From: Clostridiales bacterium
GTDB taxonomy: Bacteria; Bacillota; Clostridia; Christensenellales; Pumilibacteraceae
Length of the DNA: 64,000 nt
Direction of reading: 5' to 3'
Assembly: GCA_022508485.1 (NCBI GenBank)
Contig: JAFLVD010000004.1
Coordinates: forward strand, 48,946 to 112,945
The position numbers were made by a program, and so were the translations under genes. Shown here one piece after another: positions 849-15,786 of the stretch (positions are counted from its first letter, which is position 1; every line of letters starts with the position of its first letter). The notes below the pieces were generated by a model that worked only from the letters and a program-made list of their open reading frames with translations, ran no database searches and was not told the origin of the DNA.

Positions 849-2039
849 CTAAATGTTTGTCGAGGCGCAAATTTCGTCGAGCGCAGATATAAGTCCGTCG
901 ATTTCCTCTTTCGTAATAGTAAGGGGCGGAATGAGCCTTATCGTGTTGTTGCCTGCCACGTTTACAAGGTATCCGCGCTCTCTTAATTTGTTGTCGAACA
1001 CCGCCGCCGGAAGCTTGTCGATAAGCTGAATTCCGCGCATAAGTCCTTTGCCTCGAATGTCCGATATAAAGTTATATTTAGAGAAGTGGGCGAGCCGTTC
1101 GCCTAAATATTCGCCTACGGCCGCCGAGCTTTCGAGAAGTCCGCTCGTTAAAATTTCGAGCGTCTTTTTTGCCGCCGCGCAGGCAAGCGAGTTGCCGCCG
1201 AATGTAGAGCCGTGGTCGCCGAGCCTGAATGCGGTGCCGACTTCCTCGCTCGCAAGGCAGGCGCCCATCGGGATTCCGCCTGCAATACCCTTTGCCATTG
1301 TGATAATGTCGGGCTGTATGCCGAAGTGCTCGAACGAGAAAAGCTTGCCCGTTCTGCCCATGCCGGTCTGAACCTCGTCGACCGCGAAAAGTATTCCACG
1401 CGACTTGCAAAGCGCGTACGCGTTGACTATAAAATCGTTGGTAAAAGGGCGCACGCCGCGCTCGCCCTGAATCGTTTCGATAAGCACGCCGCACACCGAG
1501 TCGTCGAGCTTACTTTTAAAGTCCTCGAAGTCGTTATACTTAAAGTGCTCGAAGCCCTCGGGAAGCGGTGCATACGCCTCGTGCTGCGAGGCGTTGTCGG
1601 TTGCGGTGAGCGTTGCGAGCGTTCTGCCGTGGAACGCGCCCTCCGACGCGAGGATTTTGCACGGCTTGCCGCTGTTTGCCGCGTATCTACGCATAAGCTT
1701 TATGGCGCACTCGTTGGCCTCCGCGCCGCTGTTGCATAAAAATATGCGTTTAAAGCCCGATTTTTCGGCGAGAAGGGCGAGATACTCCGACTGCACCTGC
1801 GTATAGTAGTGGTTGGACACGTGCATCAGTTTATGCACCTGCTCGCACACCGCCGCGGTGTATTCGGGGTGGTTGTAGCCGAGGATATTCGTGGCGATGC
1901 CTGCGACAAAATCGACGTACTTGTTGCCGTTTATGTCGTAAAGACAGTTGCCTTCGCCGTGATCGATGCAAAGATTATGCCGCGAAAATACCGGCATGTA
2001 GTTCTCCGCCTCGATTTCCTTGATTTTATTTAAATTCAT
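849..2039 (-). CDS. argD: Acetylornithine aminotransferase
   Basis: Class-III aminotransferase: FVAGIATNILGYNHPEY, FAVDEVQTGMGRTGKLFSFEHFGIQPDIITMAKGIAGGIPMGA (PLP Lys); argF/argB context. Start at internal Met with ggtggg SD; track ORF starts at 2054. Confidence 0.93.
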   Translation of the reverse strand: MNLNKIKEIEAENYMPVFSRHNLCIDHGEGNCLYDINGNKYVDFVAGIATNILGYNHPEYTAAVCEQVHKLMHVSNHYYTQVQSEYLALLAEKSGFKRIFLCNSGAEANECAIKLMRRYAANSGKPCKILASEGAFHGRTLATLTATDNASQHEAYAPLPEGFEHFKYNDFEDFKSKLDDSVCGVLIETIQGERGVRPFTNDFIVNAYALCKSRGILFAVDEVQTGMGRTGKLFSFEHFGIQPDIITMAKGIAGGIPMGACLASEEVGTAFRLGDHGSTFGGNSLACAAAKKTLEILTSGLLESSAAVGEYLGERLAHFSKYNFISDIRGKGLMRGIQLIDKLPAAVFDNKLRERGYLVNVAGNNTIRLIPPLTITKEEIDGLISALDEICASTNI

Positions 2040-4282: not shown

Positions 4283-4311
4283 TTGACAAAGAATGTACAA
4301 TAAAGTATAAT
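4283..4311 (+). promoter_or_regulatory. Consensus promoter for tRNA-Leu (TTGACA-N17-TATAAT)
   Basis: TTGACA at 4283-4288, TATAAT at 4306-4311, 17-nt spacer, 13 nt before the tRNA 5' end. Confidence 0.85.
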
Positions 4312-4324
4312 CAACCTTAGCCAT

Positions 4325-4412
4325 GCCGGTGTGGTGGAATTGGCAGACGCGCCGGACTCAAAATCCGGTGGACTAATAATCCGTATCGGTTCGACCCCGA
4401 TCACCGGCACCA
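4325..4412 (+). tRNA. tRNA-Leu (anticodon CAA), CCA encoded
   Basis: gccggtg...caccggc acceptor stem; ccgga CTCAAAA tccgg anticodon arm (CAA); long variable arm (class II); ggttcgacccc T-arm; 3' ACCA. Confidence 0.95.
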
Positions 4413-4535
4413 AAGCGGCGCTATCCGCGCCTAAATGAATAGATAAGAGATAATAGATAAGAATTAATAAAGCGAAAACTATCGTCGCCGCTTTGTATTT
4501 TTATCTCTTATCTCTTATCTTTTATTTTTTATCTA
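4411..4535 (+). repeat. Interleaved inverted repeats plus opposed heptad arrays between tRNA-Leu and the four-helix-bundle gene
   Basis: caaagcggcg (4411-4420) is the exact reverse complement of cgccgctttg (4486-4495). Heptads agataag/agataat/agataag/aattaat (4441-4468) oppose ttatctc/ttatctc/ttatctt/ttatttt/ttatcta (4501-4535). Hairpin ggcgc-tatcc-gcgcc at 4417-4431. Confidence 0.85.
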
Positions 4536-4547
4536 AACGAGGTTACT

Positions 4548-4898
4548 ATGTCGCAAGATAACGTGTTGCAAGAAAAGTCGCTGTTGTTTGCCGCAAGAAT
4601 CGTAAAGCTGCATAATTATCTTTGCAAAGAAAAACACGAAACGATAATTTCCAAACAAATAATCCGAAGCGGAACCAGCATCGGTGCAAACATTAACGAA
4701 GCTACTTACGGGGCAAGCAAGGCCGACTTTGTTGCTAAATTGCATATAGCCTTAAAGGAAACAGCCGAAACCGAATATTGGTTAAGGCTGCTTACTCTTA
4801 CTGAATATTTAACTGCTTCGGAAAGTGAATCGCTTATCGAAGATTGTATGGAAATAAAGCGGATACTTGTTTCCTCGTTAAAAACTTCCAAGGCATAA
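4548..4898 (+). CDS. Four helix bundle protein (23S rRNA-intervening-sequence protein / Avd-like family)
   Basis: ARIVKLHNYLCKEKHETIISKQIIRSGTSIGANINEATYGASKADFVAKLHIALKETAETEYWLRLL is the family signature (SGTSIGANIxEA, K..F..KL.IALKEa.ETeYWL.LL). Confidence 0.92.
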   Translation: MSQDNVLQEKSLLFAARIVKLHNYLCKEKHETIISKQIIRSGTSIGANINEATYGASKADFVAKLHIALKETAETEYWLRLLTLTEYLTASESESLIEDCMEIKRILVSSLKTSKA

Positions 4899-4935: not shown

Positions 4936-5721
4936 TCACATCTCAATTTTACAGTCTTTCGCCGCGTTAAGGATGAGTTTTAGGTTTTCCTCGCTGTTTG
5001 CGACGACGAGGCCCGATTCGCCGTAGCGGTAGGGCGAGCCGTCTATTGCGGCGTACACACAGCCTGCTTCCTTAGCGGCGAGCAGTCCCGGGGAAATGTC
5101 CCATACCTTAGAGTAGTACGTTATATACGCGAGCGCATGACCGCAAACGATTAGCGAAAAATCGATACACGCCGCGCCGAAATGCCGCGTTTTTAAAAAT
5201 GAGGGCTGTAATTTTTCCACGAGCGAAAACTGCTTTTGCATAGGTACGGAAACATCGCCGTAGTAGTCGCTTATAATAAGCATGCCGTCCGCCGCTTTTT
5301 GTGAATGGTCTACGCGCAGGCGCACGCCGTTAAAGTACGCACCGTTGCCGTCGATTGCGGTTAAAACGTCGTCGTGCTTGGGAAAGTACAGCACGGACGC
5401 GCGGCAAACCTCGTCCTCGAAGTACGCGATTTGAATTCCGTAGAGGGTAAGACCTGCGGCAAAGTTGCACGTTCCGTCGATAGGGTCGACGACGTAGCAG
5501 CGGCCCGAAAGACTTCCTCTCGAATAGTTTTCCTCGCTTATAACCGAAGCGGACGGGTCGAACCGTTTAATTTTTTCTACTATAAAATTCTCTATCAGAA
5601 TATCGTTTTCGGTGAGTAGATCGTTTTTCGTTTTGTGGCGCGATACGACAACTTCCTGGGCAAGCAGCTTTTTGCCGGCCTCGCGCACAATGGTCTCAAT
5701 CTGTTTAATCCGTTCAGTCAA
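4936..5721 (-). CDS. Inositol monophosphatase/PAP-phosphatase-superfamily protein, TTG start
   Basis: VVDPIDGTCNFAAGLTLYGIQIA (DPIDGTxNF), SEEN metal motif, KVWDISPGLLAAKEAG. SD ggaggt upstream of TTG; start overlaps the end of the TIR-NACHT gene by 8 nt. Confidence 0.85.
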   Translation of the reverse strand: MTERIKQIETIVREAGKKLLAQEVVVSRHKTKNDLLTENDILIENFIVEKIKRFDPSASVISEENYSRGSLSGRCYVVDPIDGTCNFAAGLTLYGIQIAYFEDEVCRASVLYFPKHDDVLTAIDGNGAYFNGVRLRVDHSQKAADGMLIISDYYGDVSVPMQKQFSLVEKLQPSFLKTRHFGAACIDFSLIVCGHALAYITYYSKVWDISPGLLAAKEAGCVYAAIDGSPYRYGESGLVVANSEENLKLILNAAKDCKIEM

Positions 5722-8563
5722 GGCTTTTACCTCCGTTTTGAATGAGCTTGCCGATATATTCGACCCACTTATCTATGTACTCGTTATCTTCCGTTTCCGA
5801 GCGGTGCTTGTCGCCGGTTAGGGAAGAGATAAGCCCTATGAGTAAATCGCATTCCGCCGTTTCGAGATAGGCGTCGATTGCGTCGTAGGCCTCCGCGCCG
5901 GCGCGCGCGTATTTTAATCCCGACGCCAGCTCGTTTGCGTCGTTTTTACAGTTCATGTACGCGTTAAGCGCGAGGTAGAATTCCACCTGGCCTTTGTCGT
6001 ACGAGCTTACCGCCTCGTTGTTTAAGATGTTTTCGAGGTCCTCTCTTATGCCGGCGGCGTCGCCGCGCATTATGCGTAAAAAGAGCGAGGTGTATTTATA
6101 GCGAACGTAATAGCGGTCGACGCACGAATTGTTTTTGTCGTAAATCTCTTTGCACGACATAAGACATTCCTCCGCCGCCTCGTAGTCCGCCTGCCAGATA
6201 TATGCGTCGGCAAGAACGCGGTAGTCCTCGGCAAGAAACAGGGTGTTGGAAATGCGCTTGTCGGTGTTGGGCATATCCTCAATCCTGCGTTTAAGCGTTT
6301 TTATGGCGGTGCGAATACTCTTGTTGCCGCTCGAAAACTCGAGCATGTGCAGATATATTTTTCCTCTTATGAGGTACGCCATACTCTTTTCGAACTCGGG
6401 ATCGCTGTTTTTCGGATCGATTTCGCTGTCGAGCACCTTTTCCACGTGCTCTATGCTCTTATCGAAGCTTTCCATAGCCTCGTCGAAAAGAACGAGCTTG
6501 CGTTCCGAAAGACCTTTAACGTTGTACAGCTCGGAAAGCAAAAGGTCGTTTCCGTTCAGCTCGGCATGGCTTGATAAAAGCTGCTTCGCCTTTTTAATGG
6601 CGCGGTTAAAATCCTCGACGATGTAATAGTAGAACACCTTGCCGATTTCGCCCTCTATTCCCCAGTCGGAATTGTCGCTTCTTAGTGCGACTGTAAGACC
6701 GATACGTTTAAGAGTAAAGAACATACCCGAGTTGTAAAGAAGCCTGCGGTTTTCAGAGAAAATGCGTATAAACGTAGGGCGAGTGAGAAGCTCTATGCAC
6801 TTTTCAGGTATATGATTGTTAAGCTCTTTGAGTTCCTCCAAATACCTGCCCAGTCCGAAATCGAAGTCGAGTTTTTCTATAACGCAGCGCTGATATTCGT
6901 AGTTGTCGAGGCTTTGCGCCAGCTCTTCGTATAGTTCAAGCTCGATAAGGGTAGCGCCGTAGTAACGCAAAACGTAAAGATTGGAGTAGTTGCCAGCCGA
7001 GTAGTCCTTTTCGATAAAGGTGCGAAGGCGCTTGAATCCGCTCTTTTTACTGATAAAGAAAATCTGCGTAATGTCGTCGAGAGTGAGCCAGTCTATAAGC
7101 GATTTGTGAAGCGGCTCGATAAAGTTGTCGCGCACGGGGAAAAGTCCGCTTATCCGCGCGAGAATGCCTTTAAGCTCGTACTCCGACCACTCGAGGTAGT
7201 CCTCTAAGAATTTAATGTTGGTCGGTTCCTGCGCGATACAGAGAAATTCGAGAAGGGGCTTGACGTCCTCGTAGGTAAGTCCGCTGTCGCGCCCGAAGAT
7301 TCGGGAAAAGCAGTCGTTAAAAAACCCGTAAATGCCGACCGGGAAAAAGTCGATGTCCTCGAGACTGCGGTTGTCCTCTTTAATCTCTTTTGTTATCTCG
7401 CTTGCGTAGAGGAACGAGCCCTCCGACTTTTTTAACAGCGCTTCGATTTTATCCTCGACGGCGTCGGGGAATTGCGATTTATAATACTCGCGCAAATCGT
7501 CCTCGGTCTCGTCCGCGGAGAGAACGCATTCCACCGAAATGGGGTAGATGGTGCGGCGGATTTCCGCCTCGTTGCGGCTCGAAAGCACAAACTTCAACCA
7601 GGGCGGAACGCTGTCCTTCATGCGTGCGAGCACCGAGCACAGCTCGTTTTCGCCGCGCCAGGAACATTCGTCGAGCGCGTCGATTACTATTACGACCGGT
7701 CGATCCATCGTAATGTCCTGCATCGGCTCGACAAGCAAATACTCGAAAATTCGCGCCGCGCTCTTTTCGAAAATAGAGTCGAGGTCGATAAGGCTTAAAA
7801 GCTTTTCCTTGTACGCCGGGATTGCGCTTGCGAGCTGGTAGGCGATAGAGGACAGGATATTTTTGGGATTTACTCTGTCGGAGTTGTTGAATTTACAAAA
7901 GTGCACGGCGCTGACGTATTCCGGATATTTCCAAACGAGCATGCTCGTAAACGCCGTTTTGCCTATTCCCGGCCGTGCGTTTATCCAGAAAAAGCGTTTA
8001 TTCGATTTTAAAAAGCCGTCGAACGCCGCAAACGCGCTTCGTCTGCCGCAAAACGTGCCGTAATACTTAAACGCGTTTTCGCGAGAAAATATCGGCTTTA
8101 AAAGTGTTCTGAGCCGAAGCTCTCTGTCCGAAAACCCGAGCTGAACGTTTCCGTTTAAAATATCGGTGAGGCTTTTGAAAAAGTCGTCGTATTTTGCGGT
8201 AATAAGCTCGCCCGACGGGTCGAGACAATCCATAAGCGAAAGCCGTTGAAACTTGTTTATGCTGAGCGGAATAAGAGAATCGTCGAGCTTGACGGGGATT
8301 ATTACCGCGTTGTTTTCGCCTGCGCGGCAAAGCTCGTTTAAACAGTACCCGTCGCTCGAAGTCGAACGGGCGGAGACGAGAAAAATAAAGTACTTGCAGG
8401 ATAGAATATGCTCGTCGATTATTCTTTCCCAATCGCCCGTTTTAAGATAGTCTACGTCGAGGAAAACCTGAAAACCGGCGCCGCGCAAATCTTCCGCAAA
8501 CTTTTTAACCGCGTCGTCGTGGTGTCCGTGGCCGTAGCTTATAAAGACGTGCTTTGCGTTCAT
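5714..8563 (-). CDS. TIR-NACHT/STAND NTPase with C-terminal TPR-like repeats (candidate immune receptor)
   Basis: N-terminal TIR: KHVFISYGHGHHD...FQVFLDVDYLKTGDW...YFIFLVSARSTSSDGYCLNELCRAGEN. Walker A ARPGIGKTAF, Walker B RPVVIVIDALDE, FVLSSRNEAEIR; helical TPR-like C-terminus (e.g. DLLLSELYNVKGLSERKLVLFDEAMESFDKSIEHVE). ATG 8563 overlaps the MBL stop (ATGA), SD gaggtg. Track ORF extends to 8602. Confidence 0.88.
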   Translation of the reverse strand: MNAKHVFISYGHGHHDDAVKKFAEDLRGAGFQVFLDVDYLKTGDWERIIDEHILSCKYFIFLVSARSTSSDGYCLNELCRAGENNAVIIPVKLDDSLIPLSINKFQRLSLMDCLDPSGELITAKYDDFFKSLTDILNGNVQLGFSDRELRLRTLLKPIFSRENAFKYYGTFCGRRSAFAAFDGFLKSNKRFFWINARPGIGKTAFTSMLVWKYPEYVSAVHFCKFNNSDRVNPKNILSSIAYQLASAIPAYKEKLLSLIDLDSIFEKSAARIFEYLLVEPMQDITMDRPVVIVIDALDECSWRGENELCSVLARMKDSVPPWLKFVLSSRNEAEIRRTIYPISVECVLSADETEDDLREYYKSQFPDAVEDKIEALLKKSEGSFLYASEITKEIKEDNRSLEDIDFFPVGIYGFFNDCFSRIFGRDSGLTYEDVKPLLEFLCIAQEPTNIKFLEDYLEWSEYELKGILARISGLFPVRDNFIEPLHKSLIDWLTLDDITQIFFISKKSGFKRLRTFIEKDYSAGNYSNLYVLRYYGATLIELELYEELAQSLDNYEYQRCVIEKLDFDFGLGRYLEELKELNNHIPEKCIELLTRPTFIRIFSENRRLLYNSGMFFTLKRIGLTVALRSDNSDWGIEGEIGKVFYYYIVEDFNRAIKKAKQLLSSHAELNGNDLLLSELYNVKGLSERKLVLFDEAMESFDKSIEHVEKVLDSEIDPKNSDPEFEKSMAYLIRGKIYLHMLEFSSGNKSIRTAIKTLKRRIEDMPNTDKRISNTLFLAEDYRVLADAYIWQADYEAAEECLMSCKEIYDKNNSCVDRYYVRYKYTSLFLRIMRGDAAGIREDLENILNNEAVSSYDKGQVEFYLALNAYMNCKNDANELASGLKYARAGAEAYDAIDAYLETAECDLLIGLISSLTGDKHRSETEDNEYIDKWVEYIGKLIQNGGKSLD

Positions 8564-9237
8564 TCGTTCACCTCGGCAACAAGAAATCCGTCCGCCTCGC
8601 ACTCTTTCATAAACTCGTCGCTGTCAAAGTGCATTAGGCAGACCTTATCCCTTATGGGCGTGGGGAACGCGCGTTTAAGCTCGCTTATATGCGTATGAAT
8701 GGGCGAGGACGAGCAGGTTGCTTCGTGGTAAATGCGGTCTATTTTGCCGCTGTTAAGCTCGTTTACCGCGCGAGGATTTATTTTGCACGTGTCGCCGCTG
8801 TAAAAAAAGGAAAACTCGCCGTAAAAGAAAAATCCGTAGCTGAAAGGTATGTGCTTTTGAGGCACGCAGTCTATTTTATAGCCGGCAAGCTCATTGGGCA
8901 CTTGTTCTATTTCGAACGGAAAGTCGACGCCGGTAAGCTTTAACAGCTGTTTAAGCCGTGCCGCCCTCGGATAGAAGATGTGAAACTCTTTATGTAAAAA
9001 TTTTTCGTTATAGTAAATAAGCGCTTCGAGCGAGCCGATGTGGTCGCTGTGCGTGTGGGTAATAAAGACGCAGATTTTATCCGCCTTTGTCAGTACGCCA
9101 AGCTTTATAAGGCGGTTGCAAATGCTCTCGCCGCAGTCGAAAATAATGAGCGTTTCTTCCGAAAAGAAGTATGCGGCAGTGTTGTACGCGCCGTAGTGAA
9201 AGGCAGACCCGTTCCCGAGAAAAGTCAGTTCGTTCAT
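8560..9237 (-). CDS. MBL-fold (RNase Z/ElaC-like) metallo-hydrolase
   Basis: MNELTFLGNGSAFHYGAYNTAAYFF, metal motif THTHSDHIGSLEAL (HxHxDH), YSGDT, HEAT. SD ggagg before ATG 9237; the track's 9294 start is an extension. Confidence 0.87.
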   Translation of the reverse strand: MNELTFLGNGSAFHYGAYNTAAYFFSEETLIIFDCGESICNRLIKLGVLTKADKICVFITHTHSDHIGSLEALIYYNEKFLHKEFHIFYPRAARLKQLLKLTGVDFPFEIEQVPNELAGYKIDCVPQKHIPFSYGFFFYGEFSFFYSGDTCKINPRAVNELNSGKIDRIYHEATCSSSPIHTHISELKRAFPTPIRDKVCLMHFDSDEFMKECEADGFLVAEVNE

Positions 9238-11825: not shown

Positions 11826-13217
11826 ATGTTACTTACAATAACCTACGAAGGAAAAAATACACAGGAACTCGGATTTTTGTTGTATAAAAATCCGAACAAG
11901 ACGCAGCAGTTTGAATTAAGCTACGGAAAAGCGTACGTTTTTTATCCGGAAGTAAGCGATACCCGTACGACCGCGGCGCTTCTTATTGATATCGACCCAA
12001 TCGACCTTGCAAGAGGTAAGCTCGGATCTTCCGTCGGCGGACTTTTCGATTACGTCAACGACAGACCGTACGCTTCGACCTCGTTTTTGAGTACCGCAAT
12101 TTCGCGCGTTTTCGGCACGGCCATGAGCGGAAAGTGCGAAGGCAGACAAGCCCTTGCCGACGCGCCGTTAAAGCTTACGGCGCGCATTTACTCGATTCGG
12201 GACGGCGGCGAGGACGACCTTGCGGCACAGCTTTTCGAACCGCTCGGATATACTGTCCGAACGGAGAGGACCGTGCTTGACGAAAGATTTCCAGAATGGG
12301 GAAGGTCGCCGTACGTTAACCTAACGGTAAGCGGCACGGTAAAGCTGTCCGTGCTGTTAAACCAGCTTTACGTGCTTATTCCCGTATTCGACAGGCAAAA
12401 GCATTACTACATGTCCGAGGACGAAATCCATAAGCTTATCGATCACGGCGAGGGCTGGCTTAGCGCCCACCCTCAAAGAGAGAAAATAGCGCACAGATAT
12501 TTTAACGCGAAAAGAAGCTATGCAAAAAAGGCGCTCGACGTTTTGCTTGCCGACGAGGCGGACGAATCGGACAAGGCGGAAGAGGAAACGGCCGAGGAAA
12601 AGGTTGTCCGTTCGCCGCTAAACGCGTTAAGAATGGAAAGCGTAAAGTCTGCCGTTCTTTTAAGCGGCGCGACAAGCGTAATAGACCTCGGGTGTGGGGA
12701 ATGTCGGCTTACGGCGCTACTTCTTAACGAGCCGCAAATAAAAAAGATTACCGCTTGCGATGTGTCGGTAAGCGTGCTCGAAAAGGGCGCGCAAAGGCTA
12801 AATATCGACCGAATGCCGAAGTACAAGCAGGATAAATTGACGCTTATGCAAGCTTCGCTTACGTATAGGGACAAAAGGTTCGAGGGCTTCGACTGCGCGT
12901 GCGTTATAGAGGTTATTGAGCACATAGAGCCCGCGCGCATACCGGCGTTCGAGCGCTCGGTGTTCGAGTTCGCCGCGCCTCGGACTGTTATTGTTACGAC
13001 GCCTAACAAGGAATATAACACGGTTTACGAGAAGATGCAAGAGGATGCCATGCGTCACGGCGACCACCGTTTCGAGTGGACGAGAGCGGAGTTTAAGAAA
13101 TGGACGGAACACGTTTGCAGTGTGTTTGGATATTCGTGCGAGATAAGCGGAATAGGCGAGAGCGACGAAAGGTACGGAACGCCTACGCAGATGGGGGTGT
13201 TTACAAAAAATGGATAA
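11826..13217 (+). CDS. hen1: 3'-terminal RNA ribose 2'-O-methyltransferase Hen1
   Basis: Hen1-like N-terminal domain (MLLTITYEGKNTQELGFLLYKNP...) plus SAM motif VIDLGCGECRLTALLL and catalytic EVIEHIEPAR...RHGDHRFEW. Confidence 0.93.
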   Translation: MLLTITYEGKNTQELGFLLYKNPNKTQQFELSYGKAYVFYPEVSDTRTTAALLIDIDPIDLARGKLGSSVGGLFDYVNDRPYASTSFLSTAISRVFGTAMSGKCEGRQALADAPLKLTARIYSIRDGGEDDLAAQLFEPLGYTVRTERTVLDERFPEWGRSPYVNLTVSGTVKLSVLLNQLYVLIPVFDRQKHYYMSEDEIHKLIDHGEGWLSAHPQREKIAHRYFNAKRSYAKKALDVLLADEADESDKAEEETAEEKVVRSPLNALRMESVKSAVLLSGATSVIDLGCGECRLTALLLNEPQIKKITACDVSVSVLEKGAQRLNIDRMPKYKQDKLTLMQASLTYRDKRFEGFDCACVIEVIEHIEPARIPAFERSVFEFAAPRTVIVTTPNKEYNTVYEKMQEDAMRHGDHRFEWTRAEFKKWTEHVCSVFGYSCEISGIGESDERYGTPTQMGVFTKNG

Positions 13218-15786
13218 AGATAAATATATATTAGAGCTTCCCGAGTTTTGCCTTGTTGCTTTGGTCGGTTCCACGTCCTCGGGCAAAAGCAGCTTTGCGA
13301 AAAAGCATTTTAAGCCGACGGAGATACTGTCGTCAGACTTTTTCAGAGGAATGGTGTGCGATGACGAAAACGACCAGAGCATTTCCGCCGACGCTTTTTC
13401 GTTGCTTCATTTTGCGGCGGAAAAGCGGCTTAAAAACATGAAGCTTACCGTAATAGACGCTACAAACATTCAGCAAAACGCAAGAAAACAAATAATCGAC
13501 CTTGCAAAAGAACAAAACGTTCACGCGGCGGCGATAGTTTTAAACCTTCCCGAAGCGATTATGCAAGAGCGGAACAAAGCCCGTCCCGACAGGAATTTTC
13601 CCGAACGAGTTATTAAACAGCACTGCCGCGAGGTAAAGCAGAGCATAAAATCTCTTAAAAAAGAAGGGTTTCGTTTCGTATACGTAATCAATTCGCTCGA
13701 GCAGCTTGAGTCCGTAGAGATTGTCCGCACCAAGCTTTGGAATGATAAGCGCGACGAACACGGGCCTTTTGATGTGATAGGCGATATTCACGGCTGCTAC
13801 GACGAGCTTGAACTTTTACTCGGTAAGCTCGGTTACGAAAAGAAAGACGGCGTGTATTCTCATTCGCAAGGCAGAAAAGTCGCCTTTCTCGGCGATTTTT
13901 GCGACAGAGGACCGAGAAACGCCGACGTGCTTCGTCTCGTAATGGACATGGTAAAATCGGGTAATGCCATAGCCGTGCCCGGAAACCACGACGTCAAGCT
14001 ACTGAAATATCTTAAAGGCAAAGATATCGCATTGACTCACGGCATAGATCTTACCATTGCCGAGCTTAACGAAAAAGGGGAAGAGTTTAAAAACGAGGTC
14101 GCTTTATTTATCGACGGGCTCATCAGTCATTACGTTCTGGACGGCGGTAAGCTTGTTATCGCTCACGCCGGACTCAAACAGGAATACATAGGTCGCGGAT
14201 CCGCAAAGGTCAGAGAGTTCTGTCTTTACGGCGAGACGACGGGCGAGCTCGATACCTACGGCCTTCCGTGCAGGCTCGATTGGGCGGCGGACTACCGCGG
14301 CCACGCTACGGTGGTGTACGGGCACATAGCGTCGAGAGAGGTGCGAGCGCAAAACGGAACGTACTGCATAGACACGGGCTGTGTTTTCGGCGGAAAGCTG
14401 ACGGCATACCGCTATCCCGAAAGGACGATCGAAAGCGTTAATGCGCTTAAAGTGTACTGCGAGCCGACTAAGCCGCTCGACGAACAAATTGACGAGAGCA
14501 TGGGCGATATGCTTACCGTTGGTGATTTTAACCGTAAAATGCATATTGCCACCGAGCTGATGCCGTCCATAGACGTTCACGAAAACAACGCCGCGGCGGC
14601 TTTGGAAATAATGTCGCGCTATGCCGCCGATCCGCATTGGCTTATTTACCTTCCGCCTACAATGTCGCCGTGCGAAACGAGTAACCTCGACGAGTATCTC
14701 GAACACCCCGTTCAGGCGTTCGACTACTATGCCAAAAGCGGCATAACGCAGGTGGTCTGCGAAAAGAAACACATGGGCTCGCGCGCCGTGATTGTGCTGT
14801 GCAAAAACGGCGGAGTTGCCAAAAACCGTTTCGGCGTTTCGGACGGAACGACGGGTATAGTTTACACACGAACGGGCAGGCGGTTTTTCGACGACTCGGC
14901 AACCGAACAAGCGGTGCTCGAAAGGCTTAACCGCGTCCTCGACTCGACCGGGTTTTGGACTGATTTCGATACGGATTGGGTTTGCCTGGATACAGAGCTT
15001 ATGCCCTGGTCGGAAAAGGCGATTGCGCTTATCCGCAGTCAGTACGCGCCTACTGGAAACGCGGCAACGGGAAGCATTTCCGTCGCGGTCGAGCTTCTCG
15101 AAAAAACGTGCGGAAGCGGAAAGTCCGTCCCTAATGCAACTGACGGATCTGACAGAAGCGTCGACCCGAGCGATATTTTAAAGCGCTACACCGGCAAGCT
15201 TTCCGACATTGAAAAATACGTTAAGGCATACCGCGAGTATTGCTGGACAGTTAACGGCATAGACGATTACCGCATTGCGCCGTTCCATATTCTTGCGACA
15301 GAGGGTAAGGTTTTCACGTCCGAAAAGCACGTTTGGCACATGGAAACAATAAAAAGGTACATGACCGGCGTCGACCCTATTTTTATGGAAACGCCGTATA
15401 TCTGCGTAAATACGGAGGACGAGGAAAGCGTTAAGGCCGGCGTTGACTGGTGGCTTAACCTAACCGCAAGCGGCGGCGAGGGAATGGTCGTTAAACCCGA
15501 AACGTACACCGCAAAGCAGGGCGCAAAGCTTTTGCAGCCTGCTGTAAAGTGTAGAGGCAGGGAATATCTCAGGATTATTTACGGCGCGGAGTATCTCGAA
15601 AAGCAGCATTTGGACAGGCTGAAGGTGCGCTCGCTTAACCGTAAACGCGCGCTCGCTTTACGGGAATTTTCGCTCGGTGTGGAAGCGCTATGTCGGTTTG
15701 TGAAGGGCGAGCCGCTTTACAGAGTTCACGAATGCGTATTCGGGGTGCTCGCTTTCGAGAGCGAGCCGGTGGACCCGAGACTTTAA
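13210..15786 (+). CDS. pnkp: Polynucleotide kinase-phosphatase (kinase, Pnkp phosphatase, ligase/adenylyltransferase domains)
   Basis: P-loop VGSTSSGKSSFAKKHF; DVIGDIHGCYDELELLLGKLGY, GDFCDRGPRNADVLRLVMDMV, VPGNHD; EKKHMGSRA (KxxGSR). 8-nt overlap with hen1. Confidence 0.94.
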   Translation: MDKDKYILELPEFCLVALVGSTSSGKSSFAKKHFKPTEILSSDFFRGMVCDDENDQSISADAFSLLHFAAEKRLKNMKLTVIDATNIQQNARKQIIDLAKEQNVHAAAIVLNLPEAIMQERNKARPDRNFPERVIKQHCREVKQSIKSLKKEGFRFVYVINSLEQLESVEIVRTKLWNDKRDEHGPFDVIGDIHGCYDELELLLGKLGYEKKDGVYSHSQGRKVAFLGDFCDRGPRNADVLRLVMDMVKSGNAIAVPGNHDVKLLKYLKGKDIALTHGIDLTIAELNEKGEEFKNEVALFIDGLISHYVLDGGKLVIAHAGLKQEYIGRGSAKVREFCLYGETTGELDTYGLPCRLDWAADYRGHATVVYGHIASREVRAQNGTYCIDTGCVFGGKLTAYRYPERTIESVNALKVYCEPTKPLDEQIDESMGDMLTVGDFNRKMHIATELMPSIDVHENNAAAALEIMSRYAADPHWLIYLPPTMSPCETSNLDEYLEHPVQAFDYYAKSGITQVVCEKKHMGSRAVIVLCKNGGVAKNRFGVSDGTTGIVYTRTGRRFFDDSATEQAVLERLNRVLDSTGFWTDFDTDWVCLDTELMPWSEKAIALIRSQYAPTGNAATGSISVAVELLEKTCGSGKSVPNATDGSDRSVDPSDILKRYTGKLSDIEKYVKAYREYCWTVNGIDDYRIAPFHILATEGKVFTSEKHVWHMETIKRYMTGVDPIFMETPYICVNTEDEESVKAGVDWWLNLTASGGEGMVVKPETYTAKQGAKLLQPAVKCRGREYLRIIYGAEYLEKQHLDRLKVRSLNRKRALALREFSLGVEALCRFVKGEPLYRVHECVFGVLAFESEPVDPRL

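Follow-up and report, generated by a model that had tools for sequence, protein, structure and literature searches.

Bacterial 23S ribosomal RNA (rRNA) intervening sequences (IVSs) have long been suspected of mobility, by a mechanism that is unknown; the function and mobility of their S23/IVP proteins, and the spread of IVSs, have been open questions since the early 1990s. Here we analyse a 64,000-nt stretch of the genome of a Clostridiales bacterium (the window), in which a gene for a four-helix-bundle (4HB) protein of the same family (S23 or 23S_rRNA_IVP; PF05635) follows a segment of interleaved complementary arms that starts at the CCA of a tRNA-Leu gene. We propose that this segment is probably the RNA-structured front of a small mobile element that resembles IVSs and is specialised for the 3′ ends of many tRNA genes in gut Clostridia. 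As in IVSs, complementary arms lie within what would be a stable-RNA transcript. Unlike IVSs, which lie within a helix of 23S (or 16S) rRNA and leave the rRNA in fragments after excision by RNase III, the element stands outside rRNA, is anchored at the 3′ CCA of tRNA or transfer-messenger RNA (tmRNA) genes and has abundant gene-free copies, and both of its arm pairs lie interleaved upstream of the gene instead of enclosing the open reading frame (ORF). An IVS embedded in rRNA was rejected as an explanation at these loci: the only Rfam match in the window is the tRNA-Leu, and 60 related loci hold tRNAs and one group I intron, and no rRNA.

Other systems resemble the locus in part. Repetitive extragenic palindromes and their hairpin-forming doublets with the associated transposase (REP/REPIN–RAYT), like miniature inverted-repeat transposable elements (MITEs), are small dispersed palindromes, only a minority of which accompany the single gene associated with them. 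The units described here are likewise small, dispersed and mostly gene-free, but the protein is a 4HB protein rather than a transposase and the target is mainly the tRNA 3′ end. Avd, the accessory protein of diversity-generating retroelements, belongs to the 4HB fold family and is suspected of having an RNA partner. A retroelement association of the family had been raised in an earlier note on this DNA and finds no counterpart here: reverse transcriptase (RVT_1, PF00078) has no match in this genome (95.8% complete) and is present in only 3 of the 20 genomes of the genus. Tandem heptads (GACAGAT) of variable number are reported to precede the S23 ORF of the Coxiella IVS, and the origin and function of IVSs are termed unclear in the same paper (PMC4990558). 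Arrays of short tandemly repeated heptanucleotides (STRR), such as TAACTGA, are intergenic (PMC4679880); the term 'four helix' is absent from that paper, and 4HB genes are not linked there to the arrays. In the literature that was searched, no description of a 4HB element in the tail of a tRNA was found.

An interleaved structure begins at the tRNA CCA

All features of the locus lie on the forward strand. The tRNA-Leu(CAA) gene (4325–4412; ARAGORN and Rfam) carries an encoded CCA at its end, and arm A (4411–4420, caaagcggcg) starts at the second C of that CCA, its first two bases being the CA. Arm A′ (4486–4495, cgccgctttg) is the exact complement of A, including the CA. Arm B (4441–4464) consists of three AGATAAG heptads and pairs with the complementary TTATCTC heptads of B′ (4497–4520), in an array that extends to about 4534. 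A local hairpin (ggcgc-tatcc-gcgcc, 4417–4431) competes with A–A′. The earlier note had drawn these arms, their interleaved order, the hairpin and the sharing of the CCA from the letters alone, and all of this stands; the B helix proves slightly longer than it had stated, with 24 positions, one G–U pair and one mismatch.

The best interleaved helix pair between 4410 and 4547 is exactly A/A′ with B/B′, and its combined score (71.3) exceeds that of all 200 dinucleotide shuffles (mean 32.6, s.d. 3.4, maximum 42.3); this score and the helix z-scores below come from our own simple helix scoring. As RNA, the structured unit A–hairpin–B–A′–B′ (4413–4537) has a folding energy of −46.3 kcal/mol (z = −7.0). 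The nested fold forms B–B′ and not A–A′, so the co-occurrence of the two helices is unproven. Allowing up to three mismatches, the heptad motif occurs at this place only in the 64-kb window, where no occurrence is expected, and a window-wide survey of tandem repeats found no second heptad array of this kind.

Two classes of known RNA were considered and rejected. At the curated Rfam threshold the tRNA is the sole match, the remaining matches being below threshold and mostly to microRNA families, and the unit therefore does not correspond to a known Rfam RNA. A topology like that of the hepatitis delta virus ribozyme, which could set a 5′ end at the CCA, does not fit what is generally known of that fold, as a hairpin lies between A and B.

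Upstream of the tRNA stands a perfect sigma-70-type promoter (TTGACA-17-TATAAT, 4283–4311; 12 of 12 consensus positions), the only good one upstream of the 4HB gene; a consensus scan of the interval between tRNA and gene found neither a comparable promoter nor a canonical terminator. The gene itself (4548–4898, 116 amino acids) matches PF05635 (7e-26) and TIGR02436 (4e-28), and its product is homologous to the solved protein 2rld. Only one other 4HB gene is present in the genome, a distant paralogue on a separate contig.

The layout is conserved while the sequence is replaced

The interleaved A–B–A′–B′ order recurs upstream of homologous genes with differing sequences. In a set drawn from the genus, family and order, all 12 tRNA- or tmRNA-linked 4HB genes carry it (z = 4.7–9.5), as does one gene linked to groEL (z = 6.8), with the other 15 genes at −1.6 to 3.2. 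Among 42 tRNA tails, a comparison that includes related sequences, z is at least 4.1 for the 17 that carry an element and does not exceed 3.8 for the remaining 25. Protein similarity alone led to 78 further loci, of which 25 have a nearby tRNA; z reaches at least 4 in 21 of these 25, and an additional locus (L199) has a truncated tRNA. The anchors comprise tRNAs for Leu, Arg, Val, Asp, Ser, Met, Ala, Lys, Gln, Cys, Gly, Tyr, Thr and Trp and one tmRNA.

The arm pairs of different families are unrelated in sequence (CAGAAACGCC/GGCGTTTCTG, CAAATGTGC/GCACATTTG, CAACAGCGCCC/GGGCGCTGTTG, CCAAAAATCGG/CCGATTTTTGG and others). Across 14 family representatives, arms matched to their own partners give 26.6 for the A helix and 37.8 for the B helix, against 13.2 and 18.9 for swapped partners; the own-partner score was reached by 0 of 100,000 permutations for A and 0 of 100,000 for B. 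We read this exchange of arms between families as covariation at the scale of whole helices. The distance from the CCA to the end of A′ is 92 ± 8 nt. Pairing of A′ extends into the CA of the CCA in about half of the loci; in the remainder A begins a few bases past the CCA or behind a native terminator. A pseudoknot-capable leader tied to the 4HB family, as first put forward, is thus borne out in its layout and its link to the gene, and withstands the refuting conditions that the earlier note had set.

Copies without the gene and at differing anchors

The term leader is too narrow, as the unit also occurs without the gene, is found at the 3′ ends of tRNAs that differ between species and behaves like a mobile element. 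The genome holds four full copies of the ~128-nt unit, with a 4HB gene at one only. The three others (85–88% identity) comprise two directly behind tRNA-Arg(CCG) and tRNA-Val(CAC) and one about 200 nt behind tRNA-Arg(CCT), so that three copies abut a tRNA CCA (Leu, Arg, Val). Across the genus, in a sampling that consists mostly of metagenome assemblies, there are about 18 full copies, most of them with no 4HB gene behind. Nine abut a tRNA called by ARAGORN (Leu, Arg or Val), the CCA being followed at once by AAGCGGCG; two come after the CCA or CA end of tRNA-like sequences not called by ARAGORN, and five follow stop codons, including two of groEL. Of 32 matches to the 5′ end of the unit, about half adjoin neither a tRNA nor a long ORF.

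Gene-bearing copies differ in their anchors. Orthologous 4HB genes (86–89% identity), each with its unit, lie behind tRNA-Leu(CAA) here, tRNA-Leu(GAG) in Anaerocaecibacter muris, tRNA-Leu(CAG) in a third genome (G009) and groEL in a fourth (G004). Wherever else in the genus the tRNA-Leu(CAA) site next to argC could be read, it is plain, the closest genome (G015) included; in G015 the unit is also absent from the tRNA-Arg(CCG) and tRNA-Arg(CCT) sites. The tRNA-Leu(CAG) site differs in each of five species: one has the unit alone, one has the unit with the gene, two have other element families that are distinct from each other, and one has a plain terminator. The matrix of tRNA-Leu genes as a whole contains gains, losses and differing element families at one tRNA. 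Downstream of groEL, most species have a plain terminator and four have the unit or part of it. From this presence and absence across genomes, a comparative-genomic argument, the unit with its 4HB gene is apparently a mobile element.

Some loci hold clues to how copies are joined. At three tRNA-linked loci (L192, L194 and L216) a further copy of the unit stands behind the 4HB gene as a direct repeat, and at L207 (1537–1770) an intact tRNA-Trp and its terminator are followed by a ~27-nt near-copy of the tRNA 3′ end, att-like, directly before the unit. Such a near-duplicate was seen at L207 only, and the repeated ~128-nt unit contains no integrase.

Three further observations concern the surroundings of the copies. 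In the genome studied, tRNA-Leu(CAG) (L308, contig C21) has behind it a unit that lacks the gene and belongs to a different family (AAAATCG...CGATTTTTGG, with TTCACT/AGTGAA arms). At L079 (about 1613–1729, reverse strand) a tRNA-like gene with an unusual internal insert lies directly before an element copy and gives a weak tmRNA match (E = 4e-05) that is below the cut-off. A second dispersed hairpin repeat (GCCGCTTGGCGCTTGCGCC...) stands beside two element copies (L040 and L041).

The tRNA-linked form occupies one clade

A maximum-likelihood tree of 98 4HB proteins places all 34 tRNA-linked sequences in one clade of 42 and none among the 55 sister sequences, which come from Bacteroidota, Verrucomicrobiota, Cyanobacteriota, Campylobacterota, Clostridia and others. 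The genes that are not linked to tRNA have another layout: in 48 of 58, one heptad array precedes the gene and a complementary one follows it, so that the pair encloses the gene (for example, AAATGCAGAATGCAG.../...CTGCATTCTGCATTT; loci include L223, L219, L234, L217 and L240). Their median enclosing-array score is 53, and that of 100 control genes is 22.6; a score of at least 35 is found in those 48 of 58, in 4 of 35 genes of the tRNA-linked form and in no control gene. One member of the tRNA clade, from Gemmiger formicilis (L213), has the enclosing form.

The enclosing layout resembles that of the IVS elements of rRNA. Tree and layout suggest that the tRNA-tail form is a specialised offshoot within a broader IVS-like group. 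Many enclosing arrays begin at the stop codon of the upstream gene. At the Richelia locus (L234), (TGACAGT)n encloses the 4HB gene, a likeness to STRR arrays in that intergenic heptad arrays adjoin gene ends. The present findings also suggest an origin for some of the dispersed heptad arrays of many bacterial genomes.

A proposed element and its alternatives

We propose that the element comprises A–hairpin–B–A′–B′ and the S23-family 4HB gene, with a length of about 490 bp, that it is inserted immediately after the tRNA-Leu CCA and that it would be transcribed from the tRNA promoter. Maturation of the tRNA 3′ end would free the tRNA, leaving the host unharmed, and would leave an element RNA with a defined 5′ end; a location directly behind a tRNA would thus offer a promoterless element its transcription, a harmless removal and a defined end. 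The element RNA may fold through A–A′ and B–B′ as a pseudoknot or as two exchanging states. The 4HB protein translated from it is likely to bind the RNA that encodes it, being the obvious candidate, and the resulting ribonucleoprotein would assist in delivering further copies, gene-bearing or gene-free, to the 3′ ends of other tRNAs.

More tentatively, this could be a mobile element reduced to a minimal ribonucleoprotein, which would recognise host RNAs by their mature 3′ ends (the CCA of tRNA or tmRNA, sometimes the ends of messages) and be joined to them at the RNA or complementary DNA (cDNA) level, with an S23-family four-helix bundle as its only protein; as no reverse transcriptase was found in the genome, such a route would need one in trans. 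If so, IVSs, free-standing heptad-stem elements and tRNA-tail pseudoknots would form one superfamily.

Several observations weigh against the proposed element. The linker between A′ and B′ is 1 nt, and simultaneous full helices of 10 bp (A) and more than 20 bp (B) would be strained, which makes alternation as likely as a pseudoknot. Within the AAGCGGCG family A–A′ is nearly invariant and nucleotide-level covariation is weak; conservation being too high to inform, that line of evidence was set aside, and the structural support comes from between families. Two of the genus copies lie about 200 nt behind a tRNA and do not abut it. Abutment to stop codons is partly self-fulfilling, as the AA at the start of the element and the heptads themselves supply stops, which weakens it as proof of 3′-end targeting. 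The 4HB family is not known to have an enzyme activity. Finally, no movement was observed, and neither a target-site duplication nor a clean 3′ boundary of the gene-bearing element could be defined.

The alternative that survives best, although unlikely, is a cis-regulatory RNA, in which the interleaved arms would form an attenuation switch or an autoregulatory site for read-through from the tRNA to the 4HB gene, mobility being incidental. The arms stop just short of the ribosome-binding site, no promoter lies between tRNA and gene, and in one variant A doubles as half of the tRNA terminator hairpin, with A′ a second copy of the other half. Most full copies in the genus are nevertheless gene-free, and the unit thus spreads or persists without the gene that it would regulate.

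We also doubt that the unit is a DNA-level MITE, whose inverted arms would form cruciforms or single-strand hairpins for an unrelated transposase, or a tRNA-targeting integrase, to mobilise in trans, with the 4HB gene a passenger. Gene-free copies do outnumber gene-bearing ones in the genus, the near-copy of the tRNA-Trp 3′ end at L207 is att-like, and short non-coding dispersed copies with presence/absence polymorphism, a trait of MITEs and REPINs, are found. However, one gene family is tied to the structure in many lineages, no terminal repeat or duplication common to the copies was seen, and the A–A′ distance is kept while the sequence is replaced, a better fit to a folded strand than to transposase sites. 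Compared with the terminal inverted repeats of MITEs and REPINs, A/A′ and B/B′ are interleaved and not terminal.

It is very improbable that the copies are terminator modules of tRNAs or mRNAs that recombination has dispersed and that belong to no mobile element. The units do sit at gene 3′ ends, and related terminator hairpins recur behind tRNAs, but the window unit has no canonical terminator, native terminators are kept at empty sites and displaced where the unit sits, and the heptad arms and the 4HB gene are left unexplained. Chance inverted repeats in AT-rich DNA, where low-complexity heptads pair readily, can be dismissed given the shuffles, the plain tRNA tails, the control genes and the between-family permutations.

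For the S23 family, the proposed element offers a new handle: a putative RNA partner that is conserved, lies outside rRNA and comes in dozens of natural compensatory variants, together with clear empty sites. With these, and with Anaerocaecibacter muris as a cultured host from the genus, binding, processing and movement can be put to direct test.

Neighbouring genes in the window

Two neighbouring loci deserve mention. A Hen1 gene (PF12623) followed by a long kinase–phosphatase-like protein (11826–15786) resembles a Pnkp/Hen1 RNA-repair cassette, the second gene being assigned from its own sequence only. A 962-amino-acid protein (5714–8602, reverse strand) combines TIR (PF13676) and NTPase (PF24883) domains and is possibly an immune-type STAND protein.
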